Positions 1-9,217 of a DNA stretch of 64,000 nt are shown in pieces. How positions within the stretch are numbered: the stretch's first letter is position 1; the number at the start of each line of letters is the position of its first letter. Source of the DNA: Mesorhizobium sp. Root102 (lineage in GTDB: Bacteria; Pseudomonadota; Alphaproteobacteria; Rhizobiales; Rhizobiaceae). The translations under genes and the position numbers were made by a program. The notes under the pieces are model-generated. The model had not been told where the DNA came from and searched no databases. It saw only the letters and a list, made by a program, of their open reading frames with translations. The stretch spans positions 186,001 through 250,000 of the forward strand of contig NZ_LMCP01000002.1 of the NCBI RefSeq assembly GCF_001425625.1. The letters run 5' to 3'.

Positions 1-921
1 AACATCTTTACGCGCGCCGACAAGGTGCTGACCGAGCTCGAAGGCTTCACCAAGGACGTTCGCGGTCCGCTGACGCAGACCGTGCAGAATGTGCAGACCT
101 TCTCGGATGCGCTGGCCAAGAATTCGGACGGCATCGACAAGTTCCTGTCCGCGGCCAGCACGCTGGCGGATGAGCTGAAAGGCGTTTCCGGCAAGCTCGA
201 TGGCACGCTGAAGGCAGCCGAAGGCCTTCTCAATGCCGTCGACAAGGACAAGATCAAGAGCATTGTCGCCAATGTCGATACGGTGACTGGGAACCTCAAG
301 GAGACTTCGAAACAGCTCGACGGCGTGATCAAGAATGTGGATACCGCGGTTGGGTCCGTCAACGATTTCGCCAAGCAGACGCAAGGCACGCTGGCCAAGG
401 TCGACGGCGTGCTCGACGGCATCGATCCGGCGCAGGTGCGCACGGCGCTCGCCAATATCCAGAAGGCCAGCAAAAACGCCGACAAGGCCGCCGCCGATAT
501 CGCAGAGGTGACCGGCAAGTTTGCCAACAGGGCCGACGACATCGACCAGACGATCAAGGATGCCAAGCAACTGGCGCAACGGCTCAACGACGCTTCGGTG
601 CGTGTCGACGGCATCCTCGCCAGGGTCGACACCTTGCTCGGGTCGGGGCAGGCCGACGGCGTGATGGCCGATGCCAGGGCGACGCTGAAATCGTTCAAGC
701 AGGTCGCCGACACGCTGAATTCGCGCCTTGGCGTCATCACCGACAATCTGGCGCGCTTCTCGGGCCAGGGGCTTTCGAATGTCGAGGCGCTGGTGCAGGA
801 CAGCCGCCGTTCGATCAGCCGCATCGAGGAGGCGGTGACCGATCTCAGCCGCAATCCGCAGCGCATCCTTTCGGGTGGCGATGGCGAGGTTCGGCAGTTC
901 GATGGCAGGGCGCGGCGTTGA
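1..921 (+). CDS. MCE/MlaD-family protein, C-terminal part (5' end cut off)
   Basis: The reading frame is open from the first base, so the N-terminus and the MCE (MlaD) domain itself lie outside the window. The visible ~306 residues are a long helical region with recurring Leu/Val/Asp spacing (DGVL, VDTLLGSG, VDTVTGNL), as in the C-terminal helical part of MlaD/MCE substrate-binding proteins that form the periplasmic component of ABC-type phospholipid transporters. The following gene encodes an ABC-transport auxiliary lipoprotein, the usual partner, which supports the call. The permease and ATPase genes would be expected just upstream. The family is inferred from the tail and the context, not from the MCE domain. 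Confidence 0.75.
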   Translation, partial: NIFTRADKVLTELEGFTKDVRGPLTQTVQNVQTFSDALAKNSDGIDKFLSAASTLADELKGVSGKLDGTLKAAEGLLNAVDKDKIKSIVANVDTVTGNLKETSKQLDGVIKNVDTAVGSVNDFAKQTQGTLAKVDGVLDGIDPAQVRTALANIQKASKNADKAAADIAEVTGKFANRADDIDQTIKDAKQLAQRLNDASVRVDGILARVDTLLGSGQADGVMADARATLKSFKQVADTLNSRLGVITDNLARFSGQGLSNVEALVQDSRRSISRIEEAVTDLSRNPQRILSGGDGEVRQFDGRARR

Positions 922-1000
922 CTTCGGCGTCGGCGCGCCCCAAGAACATGAGCCGCGAAAGCGGGTCGATCTTACGATCCGGGGACAACGGGGACCGCGC

Positions 1001-1609
1001 GTGAAGTCTGTGTGGGTGAAAACGGGCGGGTTGACATCGGCTGCGGCACTGCTTGCCCTGACGCTGGCCGGCTGCGCGGCGTTGGGCGGCAAGCCCGCGC
1101 CGCTCGATACGTTCGAGCTGTCGGCGCCTTCGGTCGACGCGCATGGCCACAGCCGCCGCCAGATCCTGATCGCGCAGCCGTCGGCGCTCAAGGCGCTGGA
1201 CAGCCAGAACATCGTCATCAAGCCATCGGATCGCTCGATCCAGTATCTCAAGGGTGCGCAATGGGCCGACCGGCTGCCGCTGATCGTGCAGGCGCGGCTG
1301 GCCGAGACGTTCCAGCGTTCGGGCAGCTTTGCCGGTGTCGGCAAGCCGGGTGAGGGCCTGGCGATCGACTATCAGGTGATCGTCGAGATCCGATCCTTCG
1401 AGGTGCGCGTCGACGGCGGCGAGCATGCCGAGGTCGATCTGTTCGTGCGCATCCTCAACGACCGCAATGGCGAGGTGCGTGCTTCCAAGAGCTTCACCGC
1501 ATCCGCGCTCGTTTCGGGCAGCGGCAATCCCGCCTATGTCAGCGCACTCGACAACGCGTTCGGCGATGCCGCCAAGCAGATCGTGGGCTGGACGGATTCG
1601 GTCATCTGA
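1001..1609 (+). CDS. ABC-type transport auxiliary lipoprotein (PqiC/DUF330-like)
   Basis: A 202-residue exported lipoprotein. From the GTG at 1001 the product starts with a short basic segment, a hydrophobic stretch and the lipobox LAGC with Cys25. The open frame extends upstream to 875, but that would bury the signal peptide inside the protein and overlap the MCE gene; GGGGA lies just before the GTG. The body, with LDTFELSAP near the N-terminus and QYLKGAQWADRLP in the middle, matches the auxiliary lipoproteins that accompany MCE/Mla-type ABC transporters and are thought to link the inner-membrane complex to the outer membrane. It follows the MCE gene by 79 bp and is the last gene of that operon, ended by the terminator at 1717-1744. 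Confidence 0.8.
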   Translation: MKSVWVKTGGLTSAAALLALTLAGCAALGGKPAPLDTFELSAPSVDAHGHSRRQILIAQPSALKALDSQNIVIKPSDRSIQYLKGAQWADRLPLIVQARLAETFQRSGSFAGVGKPGEGLAIDYQVIVEIRSFEVRVDGGEHAEVDLFVRILNDRNGEVRASKSFTASALVSGSGNPAYVSALDNAFGDAAKQIVGWTDSVI

Positions 1610-1765: not shown

Positions 1766-4700
1766 TCAATGCAGGCGGCCACTTGCATGGGCCAGCATGG
1801 TGTAGACTTTGCCGGTGTCCGAGGTCAGGTAGGTCTGCGCCATGATGTTGTCGCGGTCGTTGCGCGAGACATCCTTGAGCAGCTTCTCGAAATCGTCGCA
1901 GTAGCGGTCGACGGCGGCGCGGAACTCGGCTTCCGCCTGATACTTGCGGCGGATCTCGTCGAACGTCTGCTGGCCCTTCAGCGTGTAGAGCCGTCTTGTG
2001 AACACGTCACGCTCACCGCGCCGGTAGCGGTTCCACAACTCGATCGAAGCATCGTGGTCGATGGCCCGCGCGATATCGACAGAGAGCGAGTTCAGCGATT
2101 CCACGACATGCAGTGGCGAACGCTGCGCAGGTGCCGCGCGCGGCGCTTCAGCGGGCGCTGCGGGAGCTGCCGACCTCAGGTCCTCGTCGTTCGACGCCGC
2201 GGTCAGGAGATCACGCACCCAGCCGCCTTGCGGCGTGCGTGTATCACCACGCTGGCGCGGTGCCGCCTCGGCCGGACGCTCAAGGTCGAGCGTGCCGCGC
2301 AGTGCAGGGCCGCCCAATGGCGCCTGAGGCGTGCGCAGCTCCGGCTGCGGAGCCGGTGCGCGGCGCGCCGGCTCGGCAGCGCGTGCGGCCGGCGCTTGCG
2401 GCGCCGGACGCAGATTGCGTGGCTCGGACCCATCGCCGCCGCGGCCGGACTTGGCAACGATGTCCGAAAGCTCTTTCAAGGCGTTGATCTGCTCGGAAAC
2501 GGCGCGGCGGATGGCCGAGGTCGATTCCTTGGCCTCTTCCGGCATCTCGATGACGCCCTTCTTGAGCTCGGCGCGGGTGAGATCAAGTTCGCTCTTGATC
2601 GAGCCCGCGGTGCGCCGCATCTCCTCGGTCGCATCGGCGAAGCGCTTGGTTGCCGAATCGACGACGTCGGTGATGGCGTTGCGGATCTTGTCGGCCGACT
2701 CCATCGTCTTGCCTTCGGCGTTCTGCAGCGTCTGGCCAACGAGATTTTCGAACGAGCGCATGACCCTTTCGAGATCTTCCGACTTCTTGACCAGGCCGAC
2801 GGCGAGATCCTCGAGCGTCGACTGCCGTTCGAGCGTGTGTTCGAGGTTGCTCTGGGCCGAGCTCAACAAGTCCGAAGCGCTGGACAGCAGCCGGCTGTGT
2901 TCGTCGAACTTGGTGGCGATCGAGGCGACCTCACGCAAGGTGGACGACGATAGTTCCGTCAGCCTTGTCGTGTTCGAATCGACCAGTCGCGCCGAGCTGG
3001 CGAAGGTCTGCGCGGCCTTCTCCGTGGTGGCGGCGAAGCTTTGCGTGCTGCCGCTCAGGCGTTCATCGACCTGGCCGAGATTGACCGCGGCCTGCTCGAT
3101 CAGCTGACCGAGCTGCGAGCTGGACTTGGTCATGCGGCCGATGAGGTCGGCGACGCTATCGGACAGCGACGAGCGGGCGCCTTCGACCGCCGACAAGGTC
3201 TCGGCGGTGCGGCTGGCAAGCGCGTCGACAAGTGCGGCATTTTGGCTGCGCAGCTTCTCGGTGGCGCGTTCGGTGACCTCTTCCATGCTCCTTTGCAGTT
3301 CCGAGCCGCCCTGGGCGAAGCGTTCGACCAAAGGCCGTGCGGTTTCGTCGAGGATCTTCGACATTTCGGCCGAACGCGCCGCGAGCATGGTGTTGAGTTC
3401 GCGGGTGTTGGCGCCGATCGTCTTGGCGGCATCGTTGGTGCTCTGGCCGATATGCTGGCCAACCGCGGTGAACGTCTCCGCGATCACATTGGCGCGCGAG
3501 ACGAGTTGCGCCTCGGCATTCGACACCTGCTCGTTGAGCTTCTGGCCCATCGTCTCGGCCGTATGGGCGAGGCGGTTCTCAACGCCTGAGACCTGCTCTT
3601 CGACGCGGGCGGCCGCAGCCGCCGCGCTCGATGCGAGCCGCTCGTCAGCGCCGGTAAGCGCCTGCTCGATTTCGCGGGCATGCACGGCCATCTCCTGGCC
3701 GGTCCGCCTTGCGCGTTCGGCGACCCTTTGCTCGGTATCGGCAAAGGCGCCGACAATGGTCTCGGCATGCTCGCCGATCGTCGTGGTGCTGTTGGCGATG
3801 CGCGATACCAGACGCTGATCGGCATCATCGAAGATGCGGCCGATTTCCGAGGCACGGCTCGACAGTGCTTCCGAGCCTTCGGCGATGCGCGAGACCAGTT
3901 GCTGGTCGGCGGCATCGAAGATGCGGCCAAGGTCCGACGCGCGCGCGGCAAGCGCTTCGGCCGATTCGCCGATGCGCATGCCGAGCCGCTGGTCGGCGCC
4001 TTCGAAGTTGCGCAGGATGTCGCCGGCACGCGCGGCCAGCGACTGGGCCGTTTCGATGGCGCGGGCGACCAGCTTCTGGTCGGCGGCATCGAACGTGCCG
4101 GCAATCTCGCTTGCACGAGCTGCCAGATGGTCGGCGGTGTCCTGGGCCCGGGCGGTCAGCTGATCGGCGGTCTCCTGGGCGCGGGCGGCGAGCTTCTGGT
4201 CGGCCATGTCGAAGGCGCCGGCGATCTGGCTGGCACGGGCGGCCAGCTGATCCGCTGTTTCATGAGCGCGGGCCAGCAGCGAGCTGGATGTATCGTCAGC
4301 GCGGGCAAGCAAGGCGTTCGACGTATCTTCCGCACGGGCGTGCAGGCGACGGTCGGCGTCCTCGAACGTGCGGGCGATGTCTTCGGCCCGCGCCAGCAGG
4401 GCCGCAGAGGTCTGCTCGGCGCGCTCGGCGATCTTGCGGTCGGCGTCGCTGAACGCAGCGCCGGCCTGCTCATGCAGCGTGCTGGTGACTTCCAGCACCT
4501 TTTCGCGCAGGGCGCCGGCGACAAACACAGCGCTCTTCTCGAGCACGCCGCGGATGTTGTCGACACCTGTTGAAAGCGCACGCTCCATGGTGCCGGCGCG
4601 CTCCTCGATGATGCCGGTCTGACGGCTGAACGCCTGCTCGATCTTTTCGACATCCCCGGCGATTGCCGCGGAGATATCGGTGCTCCTGGCGGCGATCTGA

Positions 4701-7700
4701 TCGATATGGCCCGACAGCGAGCGGTCGACGTCCCTGCGGGTCTCAGCGAGCTTGCCGAGATCCTCTTCCAGCGCGCGGGTCAGCATATTGCGACCTTCGG
4801 ACAGCTTGCCGACATGTCCGGCAATGACGTCGTCGATCTCGCTGCGGCTTTCGGTGAGCTTCTGCAGATCAGCTTCCAGGGCGCGTTTGAGGATGTCGCG
4901 GCCCTCGGCCAGTTTCTCCACCTGACCGGCGACCAAACCGTCGATGCTGGAGCGGCTTTCGGCCAGCTTGGCCAGATCGGCTTCCAGCGCGCGCTTGAGA
5001 ACGTCGCGGCCTTCGGCGAGCTTCTCGACCTGGCCGGCGACCAGACCGTCGATGCTGGAGCGGCTCTCGGCCAGCTTGGCGAGATCGTCCTCGAGTGCCT
5101 TCGACAGGGTCGAACGCTCCTGGACAAGCCTTTCCGCGTGGCTGTTGACAAGGCCGCCGACGTTCTCGAGGTCGGCCTCGAGTGACCTCGACAGTGTCGA
5201 ACGATCCTGGGCGAGCCGTTCGGAATGGCTGTTGATCAGACCGCTGACGTTTTCGAGGTCGGCCTCAAGCGCTTTCGACAGCGTCGAACGATCCTGGACG
5301 AGCCTTTCGGAATGGCTGTTGACCAGGCCGTTGACGCTTTCGAGATCAGCCTCGAGCGCCCGGGCGAACTGTGCCCGGTCATCGACCAGTTTCTGCGACT
5401 GGTCGGCAATGGTCCCCTTGATCGCATTGAGGTCGGCTTCCAGAGCGCGCCGCAGGATGTCGCGGCCTTCCGCCAGCTTCTCGACCTGGCCGGCAACCAG
5501 CCCATCGATGCTGGAGCGGCTGTCGGCAAGCTTGGCGAGGTCGTCCTCAAGGGCCTTGGAAAGGGCGGAGCGATCCTGAACCAGCTTGTTCATGTGGTCG
5601 GCGATGACACTGTTCACATTCTGCAGGTCGGTTTCCAGCACCCGCGAAAGCTGCCCGCGATCCTCGGCCAGCTTTTCCGACTGGCTGGCGATGACACCCT
5701 TGATCGTGTTCAGATCGGATTCCAGCGCGCGCTTGAGAATATCGCGGCCTTCCGCCAGCTTCTCGACCTGACCGGCGACCAGACCGTCGATGCTCGAACG
5801 GCTTTCGGCCAGCTTGGCAAGGTCGGCTTCAAGGGTCTGCGACAGCAGGCTGCGGTCCTCGGCCAGCCGTCCCGAATGGCTTTCGATCAGGCCGCGTATG
5901 CCGGACAGATCGTTGTCGAGCGAATGGGAAAGCTGCGTGCGGTCCTCCGCCAGTTTGGCGGAATGGGTTTCAATGAGGCTCTTGATGCCGATTATGTCGT
6001 TTTCCAACGCCTTGGCGAGCACGGCGCGGCCCTCGGCGATCTTTTCCACCTGACCGGCGACGAGACCGTCGATGCTGGCCCGGCTGTCGGACAGTTTGCC
6101 GAGATCTGCTTCCAAAGCGCGCGACAGGATGTTGCGGCCCTCGGCGAGCTTCCCGACGTGCCCGGCAACCATTTCGTCAATGATCGTACGAGCTTGCACC
6201 AGTTTTCCGGAGTCTTCGTTCAAGGCAGTGGAGAGCCTGTTGCGGCCCTCTTCCAGCCTTTCGAGATGGCTGCCGAGCGACGCATCTATGGCTGCCCGCG
6301 ATTCATTGACCTTGCGCAGGTCCTCTTCGAGAGCGCGCGAGATCAGGCTACGGCCTTCGGCCAGCTTCTGCACCTGGTTGGTCACCGCCGCATCGATGCC
6401 GGCGCTGCCCTCGGCGAACTTCGCCAGGTCGGCCTGCATCGCCTCGGCCATGCGCTCGCGGCTTTCGGACAGCTTCCTGCTGTGGTTCTCGACGGCTTCC
6501 TCGATGCCGACGCGGGCGTCGGCGAGCCGCTGGATGTCGCTGTCGAACGAACGCGACACGACGTGACGGGCAGCTTCCATGCGCCCGGCGAAGTCGCTGG
6601 CGCGGGCTTCGAGCATGGAGGAGGTCGAGGTGACGATGTCGGCCATGTCGGCGCCGATCTGGGTCTTGCCCTGATCGATCATCGCCGACAGGGTATCCTT
6701 GCTCTCGGCAAAGGTATGGGCGATTTCGCGGGCGCGCTCGACCAGCGTCTCGTTGATCTGGCGGGCGCGGGCCTCGAGTGCCGCATTGAGCTTCTGCGTT
6801 CCGGTGTCCAGCGCCTCGGCGCGGGTCTGGAATTCGCTGATCAGCGCCTGGCCGCGTTCGGCGAGTGTCCGCTCGATGCCGTTGAGGCTGGCCTCGAATT
6901 CGGAATTGAGGGTGCGCGCGGCACCGCCAAGCAGCGACACCATGCCTGTGGTGCGATCGTCGAGCAGATCGGTCAACGACCGCGTCAGGCCATCCGTGGT
7001 GTCCGTCAGCTTGGCAATGCGGGTGTCGAGAAGGCTGGCGAAGGCCTCGCCCGAGGTCGACAGACGGTCGGTGATCGAATCGAGCCGGCCTTCGACCGAA
7101 TCGAAGATCGACATCGAGCTTTCGTTGATGCGGTCGATCAGCGTGTCGCCGGAATTGGTGATCGTCATCGACAATTTGGTCGATGCATTGAGGATCGAGT
7201 CACGGATGATGTCGGAGGCGGCGCCGATCTCGTCCTTCAGTGTCTCGTGCGCACCGGTGATCGAGGCGCGGACGCGCTCGGCATGGGTGACGACGGCTTC
7301 GCGCTCGCTGCCGAGTCCGTCGACGAGCGAACGGATACGGGATTCATTCTCGGAATAGGAGCGTTCGATCTGGTTGACTTCGCTGTGGACCAGCGTTTCC
7401 AGCTCGACGGCGCGGGCAAGCGTGCGTTCAATGCCTTCGCCCATGGCCGCGACCTCGCGACGAACAGCCTGGCCGATCATCATGACGCGATCCTGGGCAA
7501 GGTTTTCCGGCTCGGTCAGGCGAAAGGCCACTTCGGTCATCGACTGGGCGGCGATGCGCATTTCCTGGGCGCGGCGAATCATTGCCGCGAAGGCCCAAAA
7601 CAGGATGACGGGCACGATCGCCGCGACGGCGAGGCCGATCAGCTCCGGACGGGCAAGGAACTGGTCGAGCGTACGGATTCTCCAGATGCTCGGTCCGAAA

Positions 7701-8143
7701 AGGAGGTTGGCCAAGCCGCCGGCGCCGGCGAACCAGGCGAGCGAAACGAAGGCAACCACCCAGTAAATGGTGTTCGAGGCACGCCTGTTGAGGGTGTGCA
7801 GAAGCGTCTTGTAGTCCTTCTGGCGATCGTCATTGGCCGGCGCGAAACCCGCGGGCTGGGCGCCATTGCGTGATTCCACGGGGCGCAACTCGGCAGGCTT
7901 GGCCTTTGGCGCGGGTTTTGCGGCCTGGTTCTGATTGACCACGGGCTCTGGCTTCTGATTGCGTCCCTCGCGCGCCAGCTCATCGGCGGCCTGGGATATC
8001 TGCGCTTCCAGATCCTCCATCGAAGCCGCGATGTCGAGGTCGCCGCTGCCGACATCATTGCTGAGGTCGAGATCGAGCGCCTTTTCCAGTTCCCTGGCTA
8101 CATCGCTGTCGAGAGTTCTCGTCGTCGTTGGTTTCTTTGCCAT
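1766..8143 (-). CDS. gpr: Giant coiled-coil membrane protein, GPR/RgsE-like polar growth protein
   Basis: A 2125-residue protein. The start is placed at the ATG at 8143 (MAKKPTTTRT); the frame runs 117 bases further upstream without a convincing start. Order of parts: acidic N-terminus (1-120), two membrane segments at about 125-147 and 166-188, then about 1500 residues of nearly continuous helix rich in Ala, Glu, Ser and Arg, including 29/36-residue repeats (574-1129), a Pro/Ala-rich linker near 1940-2000, and a compact conserved C-terminal domain ending LAHASGRLH. Size and layout agree with the Agrobacterium Growth Pole Ring protein (about 2115 residues, apolipoprotein-like helices) and its Sinorhizobium homologue RgsE, which organise polar growth. 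That identity is inferred from architecture; no alignment was run. Confidence 0.75.
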   Translation of the reverse strand: MAKKPTTTRTLDSDVARELEKALDLDLSNDVGSGDLDIAASMEDLEAQISQAADELAREGRNQKPEPVVNQNQAAKPAPKAKPAELRPVESRNGAQPAGFAPANDDRQKDYKTLLHTLNRRASNTIYWVVAFVSLAWFAGAGGLANLLFGPSIWRIRTLDQFLARPELIGLAVAAIVPVILFWAFAAMIRRAQEMRIAAQSMTEVAFRLTEPENLAQDRVMMIGQAVRREVAAMGEGIERTLARAVELETLVHSEVNQIERSYSENESRIRSLVDGLGSEREAVVTHAERVRASITGAHETLKDEIGAASDIIRDSILNASTKLSMTITNSGDTLIDRINESSMSIFDSVEGRLDSITDRLSTSGEAFASLLDTRIAKLTDTTDGLTRSLTDLLDDRTTGMVSLLGGAARTLNSEFEASLNGIERTLAERGQALISEFQTRAEALDTGTQKLNAALEARARQINETLVERAREIAHTFAESKDTLSAMIDQGKTQIGADMADIVTSTSSMLEARASDFAGRMEAARHVVSRSFDSDIQRLADARVGIEEAVENHSRKLSESRERMAEAMQADLAKFAEGSAGIDAAVTNQVQKLAEGRSLISRALEEDLRKVNESRAAIDASLGSHLERLEEGRNRLSTALNEDSGKLVQARTIIDEMVAGHVGKLAEGRNILSRALEADLGKLSDSRASIDGLVAGQVEKIAEGRAVLAKALENDIIGIKSLIETHSAKLAEDRTQLSHSLDNDLSGIRGLIESHSGRLAEDRSLLSQTLEADLAKLAESRSSIDGLVAGQVEKLAEGRDILKRALESDLNTIKGVIASQSEKLAEDRGQLSRVLETDLQNVNSVIADHMNKLVQDRSALSKALEDDLAKLADSRSSIDGLVAGQVEKLAEGRDILRRALEADLNAIKGTIADQSQKLVDDRAQFARALEADLESVNGLVNSHSERLVQDRSTLSKALEADLENVSGLINSHSERLAQDRSTLSRSLEADLENVGGLVNSHAERLVQERSTLSKALEDDLAKLAESRSSIDGLVAGQVEKLAEGRDVLKRALEADLAKLAESRSSIDGLVAGQVEKLAEGRDILKRALEADLQKLTESRSEIDDVIAGHVGKLSEGRNMLTRALEEDLGKLAETRRDVDRSLSGHIDQIAARSTDISAAIAGDVEKIEQAFSRQTGIIEERAGTMERALSTGVDNIRGVLEKSAVFVAGALREKVLEVTSTLHEQAGAAFSDADRKIAERAEQTSAALLARAEDIARTFEDADRRLHARAEDTSNALLARADDTSSSLLARAHETADQLAARASQIAGAFDMADQKLAARAQETADQLTARAQDTADHLAARASEIAGTFDAADQKLVARAIETAQSLAARAGDILRNFEGADQRLGMRIGESAEALAARASDLGRIFDAADQQLVSRIAEGSEALSSRASEIGRIFDDADQRLVSRIANSTTTIGEHAETIVGAFADTEQRVAERARRTGQEMAVHAREIEQALTGADERLASSAAAAAARVEEQVSGVENRLAHTAETMGQKLNEQVSNAEAQLVSRANVIAETFTAVGQHIGQSTNDAAKTIGANTRELNTMLAARSAEMSKILDETARPLVERFAQGGSELQRSMEEVTERATEKLRSQNAALVDALASRTAETLSAVEGARSSLSDSVADLIGRMTKSSSQLGQLIEQAAVNLGQVDERLSGSTQSFAATTEKAAQTFASSARLVDSNTTRLTELSSSTLREVASIATKFDEHSRLLSSASDLLSSAQSNLEHTLERQSTLEDLAVGLVKKSEDLERVMRSFENLVGQTLQNAEGKTMESADKIRNAITDVVDSATKRFADATEEMRRTAGSIKSELDLTRAELKKGVIEMPEEAKESTSAIRRAVSEQINALKELSDIVAKSGRGGDGSEPRNLRPAPQAPAARAAEPARRAPAPQPELRTPQAPLGGPALRGTLDLERPAEAAPRQRGDTRTPQGGWVRDLLTAASNDEDLRSAAPAAPAEAPRAAPAQRSPLHVVESLNSLSVDIARAIDHDASIELWNRYRRGERDVFTRRLYTLKGQQTFDEIRRKYQAEAEFRAAVDRYCDDFEKLLKDVSRNDRDNIMAQTYLTSDTGKVYTMLAHASGRLH
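4757..6424 (-). repeat. Tandem 36- and 29-residue coding repeats in the giant coiled-coil gene
   Basis: About 17 consecutive modules can be read by eye, each ending in a variant of ALEADL. Long modules have 36 residues (SRSSIDGLVAGQVEKLAEGR core) and short ones 29 (INSHSERLAQDRSTL core). In order from the N-terminus: 36,36,36,36,29,29,36,29,29,36,29,29,29,29,36,36,36. Five long copies share the core IDGLVAGQVEK almost unchanged, suggesting recent duplication or gene conversion. Confidence 0.85.
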
Positions 8144-8415: not shown

Positions 8416-8784
8416 ATGCGTGGCGAAAGCGGCATTGCCTTCTCAATGCCCGGAGGCGACGTATCCGGACCTAGGCGGTCACGGCCGGTCGATTTGGCAC
8501 ACCTTGCCCGCCAGACCATGGGCGACCGCAGCCTCGAGCAAGAGGTGCTGGCGCTGTTTGTACAACAGGCGCTGTCGGTGCGCGACAAAATACTGGATGC
8601 CGACATCAAGGACCGGCTTCTGCTGGCGCATGGGCTGAAGGGTTCGGCACGGGGTGTCGGTGCCTTTGCCATCGCCGATTGCGCCATCGAGATCGAGCAC
8701 CGGCCGGAAGACAACCAGACGCTCAGGCGGCTCGGCACGCTGATCGACGAAGTGCGCGATTTCATCGCCGCCATCAGTCGCTGA
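8416..8784 (+). CDS. HPt (histidine phosphotransfer) domain protein
   Basis: A 122-residue single-domain phosphotransfer protein. The motif AHGLKGSARGVGA carries the expected phospho-accepting histidine, His72, followed by the small-residue turn typical of HPt four-helix bundles. A non-conserved N-terminal tail of about 25 residues precedes the fold. HPt proteins shuttle phosphoryl groups between hybrid kinases and response regulators in the cytoplasm; no kinase or regulator is adjacent, so the partner cannot be named. The start ATG has GGAG ten bases upstream. It is divergent from the giant coiled-coil gene across a 272-bp gap. Confidence 0.85.
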   Translation: MRGESGIAFSMPGGDVSGPRRSRPVDLAHLARQTMGDRSLEQEVLALFVQQALSVRDKILDADIKDRLLLAHGLKGSARGVGAFAIADCAIEIEHRPEDNQTLRRLGTLIDEVRDFIAAISR

Positions 8785-8896: not shown

Positions 8897-9217
8897 ATGA
8901 CCAAGCTGACTTTCATCGCCCATGACGGCACACATTTCGACATGGACGCCGAGAACGGCTCGACGGTGATGGAGAACGCGATTCGCAACGCCGTGCCCGG
9001 GATTGAGGCGGAATGCGGCGGTGCCTGCGCCTGTGCTACCTGTCACGTCTATGTCGACGAAGCATGGACGGCTGAAGTCGGCGAGCCGGAAGCGATGGAA
9101 GAAGACATGCTGGACTTCGCCTACGACGTCCAGCCGAACTCACGGCTGTCGTGCCAGATCAAGGTGCGCGACGCGCTGGACGGTCTCATTGTGCGGGTGC
9201 CCGCCCGCCAGGGCTGA
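8897..9217 (+). CDS. 2Fe-2S ferredoxin, adrenodoxin type
   Basis: A 106-residue electron-transfer protein. Cys40, Cys46, Cys49 and Cys86 follow the adrenodoxin pattern C-x5-C-x2-C-xn-C within [12 protein letters not shown] and LSCQIKV; Cys44 is an additional cysteine in the loop. Length and the acidic segment before the last cysteine ([10 protein letters not shown]) are usual for the bacterial ISC-type or FdxB-like ferredoxins. AGGTGA precedes the ATG. The ferredoxin-NADP reductase gene follows 183 bp downstream, separated by two palindromic repeats, so the two may function as a redox pair, although no isc genes are present here to fix the pathway. Confidence 0.9.

Follow-up and report, generated by a model that had tools for sequence, protein, structure and literature searches.

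Polar growth in the Rhizobiales is organised in important part by the growth pole ring protein GPR of Agrobacterium and its counterpart RgsE of Sinorhizobium, and the question is how a helix of 2,000 residues can form a ring. Agrobacterium GPR (Atu1348; 2,115 aa) assembles as six foci in a 200-nm ring close to the tip of the growth pole, and both rod shape and the placement of peptidoglycan synthesis depend on it (PMC8262873). Sinorhizobium RgsE (SMc00190; 2,089 aa) has TolQ and RgsA as two-hybrid partners and, more weakly, RgsS (PMC7327166). Polar localisation has been published for both homologues (PMC8262873, PMC7327166). GPR is described as containing apolipoprotein domains and two 21-residue predicted coiled coils (PMC8262873), and RgsE as 'repeat-containing', with apolipoprotein domains and SMC-like coiled-coil regions (PMC7327166). 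The published view is thus of a rod made from a chain of apolipoprotein-like domains, possibly folding back on itself.

Here we describe the gpr/rgsE homologue of Mesorhizobium sp. Root102, which lies in a stretch of 64,000 nucleotides (the window; assembly GCF_001425625.1, contig NZ_LMCP01000002.1, positions 186,001 to 250,000 of the forward strand). Judged by its sequence, the rod of this protein is written in 18-residue units (heptad plus hendecad, 5 turns) and 11-residue units (3 turns), not in heptads. Its hydrophobic stripe repeats every 3.62 residues and would run almost straight along the rod. A non-heptad grammar is present in every relative whose rod could be anchored at both ends, and favours a coiled coil of great length with almost no twist over the published chain of domains. 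We consider it probable that the protein is a membrane-anchored scaffold of this kind at the growth pole.

The open reading frame (ORF) runs from 8143 to 1766 on the minus strand and encodes 2,125 aa beginning MAKKPTTT. A MAKK start recurs at the same place in 54 of the 80 loci of the named sample described below (found by a script searching for such a start), which makes an alternative longer ORF from 8260 less likely. By architecture and distribution, we identify the product as the Mesorhizobium homologue of GPR and RgsE: it shares with them a length of about 2,100 aa, two N-terminal transmembrane helices, about 1,700 aa of helix and a Rhizobiales-wide occurrence (PMC8262873, PMC7327166); the apolipoprotein-like stretches published for them have a counterpart here in PF01442 matches just below the curated cut-off. 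An earlier note on this DNA had proposed a polar-growth-type protein, and this is supported. The parts of the gene are as follows.

1766..8143, minus strand: gpr/rgsE homologue, 2,125 aa (ORF; PF01442 match; literature on homologues)
7574..7771, minus strand: two predicted transmembrane helices, aa about 125–190 (Kyte–Doolittle windows)
6428..7555, minus strand: first rod part with 11-residue periodicity, aa 197–572 (lags and period)
4652..6427, minus strand: module array of 18-residue units A and B and 11-residue unit C, aa 573–1164 (repeat finding on DNA, autocorrelation, parse, held-out test)
5258..6103, minus strand: three successive 94-residue frames ABCBCB, aa 681–774, 775–868 and 869–962 (parse, lag 94)
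5714..5821, minus strand: near-identical long module, aa 775–810 (pairwise identity)
5432..5539, minus strand: near-identical long module, aa 869–904 (pairwise identity)
4976..5083, minus strand: near-identical long module, aa 1021–1056 (pairwise identity)
4868..4975, minus strand: near-identical long module, aa 1057–1092 (pairwise identity)
3644..4465, minus strand: second array of 11- and 18-residue units, aa 1227–1500 (repeat finding on DNA, autocorrelation)
2453..3643, minus strand: last rod part, aa 1501–1897 (period mainly about 3.64; a second, weaker peak)
2117..2452, minus strand: Pro/Ala-rich linker, aa 1898–2009 (sequence)
1769..2116, minus strand: conserved helical C-terminal domain of 116 aa, aa 2010–2125 (genome matches, structure model)

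Nine 36-residue and eight 29-residue modules make up aa 573–1128 (9 × 36 + 8 × 29 = 556 residues), one residue away from the span of 574–1129 given in the earlier note, which had also correctly observed that both lengths are 7n+1 and lie one heptad apart. Autocorrelation of residue identity over aa 540–1160 is strongest at lag 94 (z-score 19.6), followed by 36 (18.8) and 29 (15.7); lag 18 has a z-score of 8.7. Tandem Repeats Finder (TRF) returned periods of 108, 87, 54, 33 and 120 bp from the DNA, that is 36, 29, 18, 11 and 40 aa. The units are A (LAKLAESRSSIDGLVAGQ; 18 residues), B (VEKLAEGRDILKRALEAD; 18 residues) and C (LENVSGLINSH; 11 residues), such that the longer module is A+B (18+18) and the shorter one C+B (11+18). 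Parsed with these units, aa 573–1164 resolves into 11 A, 17 B and 8 C, a total of 592 residues with none left over, the last pair (from 1129) being degenerate. In a held-out test, consensus units from the first half covered 278 of the 296 residues of the second half with a score of 92.6 (best of 300 shuffles, 9.7). The strongest lag corresponds to a super-repeat of 36+29+29, and neighbouring 94-residue frames are identical at 53/94 and 68/94 residues.

The long modules beginning at 775, 869, 1021 and 1057 have 33–35 of 36 residues in common pairwise. The fifth (681), which the earlier note had counted among five near-identical copies, shares 26–27 with them, leaving four. DNA identity of the four is 82–91%, and each pair differs by 8–15 synonymous and 1–3 nonsynonymous codons; since synonymous differences outnumber nonsynonymous ones, the sequences indicate protein constraint rather than very recent copying. 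Within the units, positions 4, 11 and 15 are hydrophobic in all 27 of the 18-mers and position 8 is Arg in 26, while Asp occupies position 18 in 17/17 B units and position 12 in 10/10 A units. On a helical wheel Arg 8 falls inside the hydrophobic stripe, with Asp 18 bordering it; as speculation, the two could form inter-chain salt bridges that set the stagger of the chains.

The hydrophobic period of aa 574–1129 is 3.615 residues, with a normalised power of 84.9; at 3.5 the power is 0.3, and 200 shuffles reach at most 10.1. On the Eisenberg scale the values are 17.1 at 3.615 and 0.1 at 3.5, with a shuffle maximum of 11.0. By the same method, one arm of the SMC protein of the same genome has a period of 3.505–3.51 and the other 3.465 (whole) or 3.495 (summed windows), and human apoA-IV has a period of 3.665. 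With this control at about 3.5, a heptad register with a rotating seam was rejected; that the array is no plain heptad coiled coil had been anticipated by the earlier note. Eighteen residues make five turns (3.60 residues each) and eleven make three (3.667 each). In a heptad (3.5) frame the phase of the stripe moves by about +100 degrees per 36 residues, and the earlier note had deduced from the module lengths that the hydrophobic seam drifts steadily between modules. In a frame of 100 degrees per residue, however, the phase hardly changes along a run of 36-mers and shifts by about 20 degrees per 29-mer. The steady drift is therefore a product of the heptad frame, the best single period being 3.615. 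At this period the 94-residue super-repeat is back in phase within 1 degree, a figure that is partly circular because the period was fitted on the same region. Once the units are read as 18 and 11, the register of aa 574–1129 is unbroken across modules, the outcome that the earlier note itself had named as counting against its proposal.

One turn of an undistorted α-helix takes 3.63 residues (PMC9858780). Since the period of 3.62 is close to this value, the mixed 18/11 rod would be nearly straight, and by our own arithmetic, using the usual relation, its supercoil would be several times gentler than that of a heptad coil. A single-sequence AlphaFold2 (AF2) model of aa 541–1176 has 616 of 636 residues helical at low confidence (predicted local distance difference test (pLDDT) 65, predicted template modelling score (pTM) 0.22), which weakly supports helicity.

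Outside the array, Kyte–Doolittle windows of 19 residues scoring at least 1.6 start at aa 126, 129–131 and 162–174. Only three prolines occur in aa 197–1900. The top lags of aa 210–560 are 11, 22, 40 and 33, and the hydrophobic period of aa 210–540 is 3.645. The second array (aa 1227–1500), which lies outside the module stretch of the earlier note, has top lags of 29, 40 and 11, and its units mostly begin ARA or SRA. The C-terminal domain was matched in 98/99 genus, 119/121 family and 142/150 order genomes, nearly always in one copy; in 31 other named rows it is 88–98% identical to that of the window. Its AF2 model contains helices only (mean pLDDT 68.8; 32 close sequences), and a search with this modest model gave no PDB fold match at E≤0.001. 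Pfam and NCBIfam scans of the whole protein gave no match above a curated cut-off.

We compared the rod with those of relatives in two samples. The named sample comprised 80 loci out of at least 576 confirmed, 59 of them titled Mesorhizobium, and the order sample 40 loci from 39 families, chosen for long open frames from 142 matching genomes. These 120 loci yielded 111 complete ORFs, to which 20 of 119 matching family genomes were added. Both anchors were present in 130 of the resulting 132 proteins, the window's included; L095 and L138 were dropped. L095, a Mesorhizobium metagenome-assembled genome, has a GPR frame shortened to 1,552 aa and retaining few module units, through a frameshift, misassembly or real truncation.

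All 130 anchored rods have a summed-window period of 3.615–3.670, and none has a heptad period overall. In 150-residue windows (3,426 in all), the peak falls at 3.58–3.70 in 3,212 cases and at 3.46–3.54 in 46. The strongest repeat lag takes the form 11a+18b in 130/130 rods, a form shared by 32 of the 95 lags tested. Of the 40 order rods, 38 have a multiple of 11 as this lag (L147 and L151 have 80 and 40); none of the 46 Mesorhizobium-like rods does, their strongest lag being 29, 36 or 94 throughout. Thus the hendecad looks like the common grammar of GPR rods and the 18-mer like a dialect of Mesorhizobium and its near relatives. In a quick tree of 121 distinct rows the 18 and 11 labels, which are noisy for short rods, cluster, yet seven label changes are needed (at least four forced by starred branches), and a single origin of the 18-mer is for this reason not claimed.

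Rods of relatives differ greatly in length. Anchor-to-anchor lengths of the 130 rods span 411–2,766 residues, and the 46 Mesorhizobium-like rows contain between 13 (L103) and 28 (L098) B units, the window having 19, with most counts including one stray distal match. The earlier note had expected the region to change length between strains, an expectation that holds in so far as length changes between species. Long examples are the Mesorhizobium L098, an Oryzicola (L118) with 36 B units and a family member (L192) with an open frame of 3,392 aa. Mesorhizobium-like arrays differ from one another by AB, CB and ABCBCB. The 23 distinct lengths of Mesorhizobium-like rods are concentrated in phase, at a period of 3.615 (R=0.93; maximum of 300 random sets, 0.63). 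The concentration is lower for the 42 lengths of the window plus 80-locus set (R=0.68 at 3.61) and for the 94 lengths of all rods pooled (R=0.40 at 3.61), each with 0 of 300 random sets as high. In the N part, gaps outside the arrays measure 4 residues in seven cases and 80 in one; in the C part there are five gaps of 40 residues, four of 62, one of 66 and three each of 124 and 1. Leaving aside the 1-residue gaps, all deviate from whole turns at 3.64 by no more than about 50 degrees, in a small sample in which some gaps are overlapping versions of one event.

These comparisons bear on how the array should be understood. The model of the earlier note, in which the seam of a heptad-like helix turns with each module (which would give a spiral of binding faces), can draw on the 7n+1 form of both lengths and on the shift of about 100 degrees per 36 residues in the 3.5 frame. 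It is rendered highly improbable by the power of 0.3 at 3.5 against 84.9 at 3.615, by an 18/11 tiling that leaves no remainder and by the lack of an overall heptad period in all 130 anchored rods. More plausible, and possible without being our first choice, is that module number is neutral, the array expanding and contracting by recombination without functional consequence, an idea compatible with the untwisted scaffold. Neutrality accords with the wide range of rod lengths, with differences by unit and super-unit and with the loss of length phase across the order; it sits less well with the protein identity kept by four copies despite many synonymous differences and with non-array gaps of 4, 40, 62, 66, 80 and 124 residues near whole turns, in a small sample with some overlapping events and three further gaps of 1 residue.

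The remaining alternative, proposed for Agrobacterium GPR, takes the likeness to apolipoproteins literally: an amphipathic rod helix would bind lipid, fold on itself and organise the membrane lipids of the growth pole. We regard it as unlikely. The window protein narrowly misses the curated PF01442 cut-off (87.7 against 90 bits; E = 1.1e-24, 10 stretches), apoA-IV is its sole PDB sequence match at E≤0.01 (E = 0.003) and itself has an 11/3 stripe (3.665), and deletion of the apoA-IV-like domains impairs GPR function (PMC8262873). Part of this likeness, though not the whole, is pattern, since rods permuted within hydrophobic and polar classes retain much of the score: their mean raw apoA-IV score is 52.9, compared with 84.5 for the real rod, 80.5 for the best permuted rod and 3.7 for a full shuffle. 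The real rod thus exceeds 200/200 permuted rods on raw score and 190/200 after composition correction, when 10/200 reach its 16.8 (permuted mean −7.2). Apolipoproteins A1, A4 and E are built of proline-punctuated 22-residue repeats, whose hydrophobic face is lined along both edges by basic residues. Such punctuation is absent from the window rod, which has proline at 1 of 1,577 residues compared with 8 of 223 in apoA-IV, and from the 130 rods, which together have 126 prolines in 187,416 residues (highest 18 per 1,000, in L176; next 2.4). Lysine or arginine does flank the stripe of the window rod on both sides (0.30 at 40 degrees, 0.44 at 260 degrees), whereas 32 hendecad-type relatives carry it on one edge only (0.18–0.28 at 280–320 degrees, 0.02–0.06 at 40–80), unlike apoA-IV, which carries it on both. 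One-sided charge, true of these relatives and false of the window's own rod, was dropped as a criterion of membership. A hydrophobic moment of 0.34–0.36 places the rod between SMC (0.26–0.27) and apoA-IV (0.40), in favour of the lipid reading; a net charge of −4 to −6 per 100 residues argues against lipid binding. So does the lipid discriminant, calculated with its customary scale and formula, at 0.02–0.08 compared with −0.07 to 0.05 for SMC and 0.30 for apoA-IV, although weakly, as apoA-IV itself is below the 0.68 threshold.

On balance we favour a coiled coil over a lipid-binding helix. Two N-terminal membrane helices would anchor a cytoplasmic scaffold; behind them come about 1,650–1,700 helical residues nearly devoid of proline, then a flexible Pro/Ala linker and the conserved helical C-terminal domain. 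Chains would pair through the almost straight stripe into a rod that could reach about 250 nm (some 1,670 residues at 0.15 nm each), and the paired rod would hold the polar growth machinery at the new pole. Because the units are whole turns, rod length could change in steps of about 4.4 or 5.4 nm while the stripe kept facing its partner. Chain association, straightness and scaffold mechanics in Mesorhizobium are here inferred. A bolder and rather doubtful extension is that GPR acts as a phase-locked molecular ruler, rod length, in steps of 8 or 10 whole turns, setting a dimension of the growth-pole ring. If so, longer rods (about 60 to over 400 nm when fully extended) would give wider rings or rings further from the tip, and the periodic Arg/Asp positions of the seam would set chain stagger in 18-residue steps.

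Several observations weigh against the untwisted coiled coil. An Arg within the stripe of nearly every 18-mer is unusual for a buried core. The end of the rod (aa 1500–1880) has a weaker second peak at 3.555, and the AF2 rod has low-confidence breaks near aa 681–687, 872–878 and 1038–1041 that could be hinges. When rods were defined by proline instead, 2 of 111 peaked below 3.60 (L138, a 223-residue piece, at 3.580, and L175 at 3.565). Length concentration in the order and family set alone was not above chance (0.315; 81 of 300 random sets as high). Moreover, whole-turn length steps may come from recombination of whole-turn units alone, so that the length phase of close relatives cannot be separated from the way repeats recombine. 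The stripes of apoA-IV and GPR are about equally narrow, and stripe width was dropped as a discriminator. Comparison with Atu1348 and SMc00190 is at the level of their published descriptions. Finally, sequence alone does not settle the choice, as it leaves chain pairing and lipid binding undistinguished.

The genes on either side of gpr are listed below.

8416..8784, plus strand: Hpt phosphotransfer protein (Pfam match above cut-off)
8897..9217, plus strand: 2Fe-2S ferredoxin (Pfam match above cut-off)
25..921, plus strand: helical protein matching DUF948 and, below cut-off, an Mce4-type family (Pfam)
875..1609, plus strand: ABC-type transport auxiliary lipoprotein (Pfam)

The Hpt and ferredoxin genes adjoin gpr upstream on the opposite strand. 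This arrangement recurs across the order: among 39 order loci with both gpr ends, an Hpt match is present in 30 and a ferredoxin match in 36, always upstream and on the opposite strand, and there may be a shared divergent control region linking GPR to a phosphorelay. On the other side, the genes at 25–921 and 875–1609 lie tail to tail with gpr, with matches in 11/40 and 12/40 order loci. They suggest an MCE lipid-transport operon. That MCE-type genes stand beside a supposed apolipoprotein-like protein may be a chance placement.

The protein family itself is already known; what appears to be new is the hendecad grammar of its rods, the 18/11 dialect and the whole-turn length steps. Among the matches listed from open-licence literature, we found neither the order-wide hendecad nature of GPR rods nor the dialect or the length steps, and an 11/18 rod is absent from those parts of the published GPR and RgsE descriptions that we drew on (PMC8262873, PMC7327166). 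The 36/29/94 array of 18-residue units is characteristic of Mesorhizobium and its near relatives. SMC-type coiled coils share the long helical rod but have a period of about 3.5, compared with 3.62 in GPR. ApoA-IV shares the 11-residue amphipathic periodicity and a similarly narrow stripe; GPR rods differ from it in having no proline punctuation, and the 32 hendecad-type relatives in being basic on one edge, the window rod being basic on both sides. Scy and FilP, of Streptomyces and other Actinobacteria, are tip-growth scaffolds of a DivIVA-like superfamily. They resemble GPR as cell-division scaffolds with a hendecad rod, that of Streptomyces Scy, the closest analogue, exceeding 1,000 residues and consisting almost entirely of hendecads (PMC9858780), and differ from it in that GPR is larger and has transmembrane helices. 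The 11-residue periodicity of the seam, a Scy/FilP-type feature, is present in the GPR relatives, while the window protein mixes 11-mers with 18-mers. Since a Pfam scan at E≤1, with filters that can drop weak matches, gave no DivIVA match in the window protein, we take the likeness between GPR and Scy as probable convergence.

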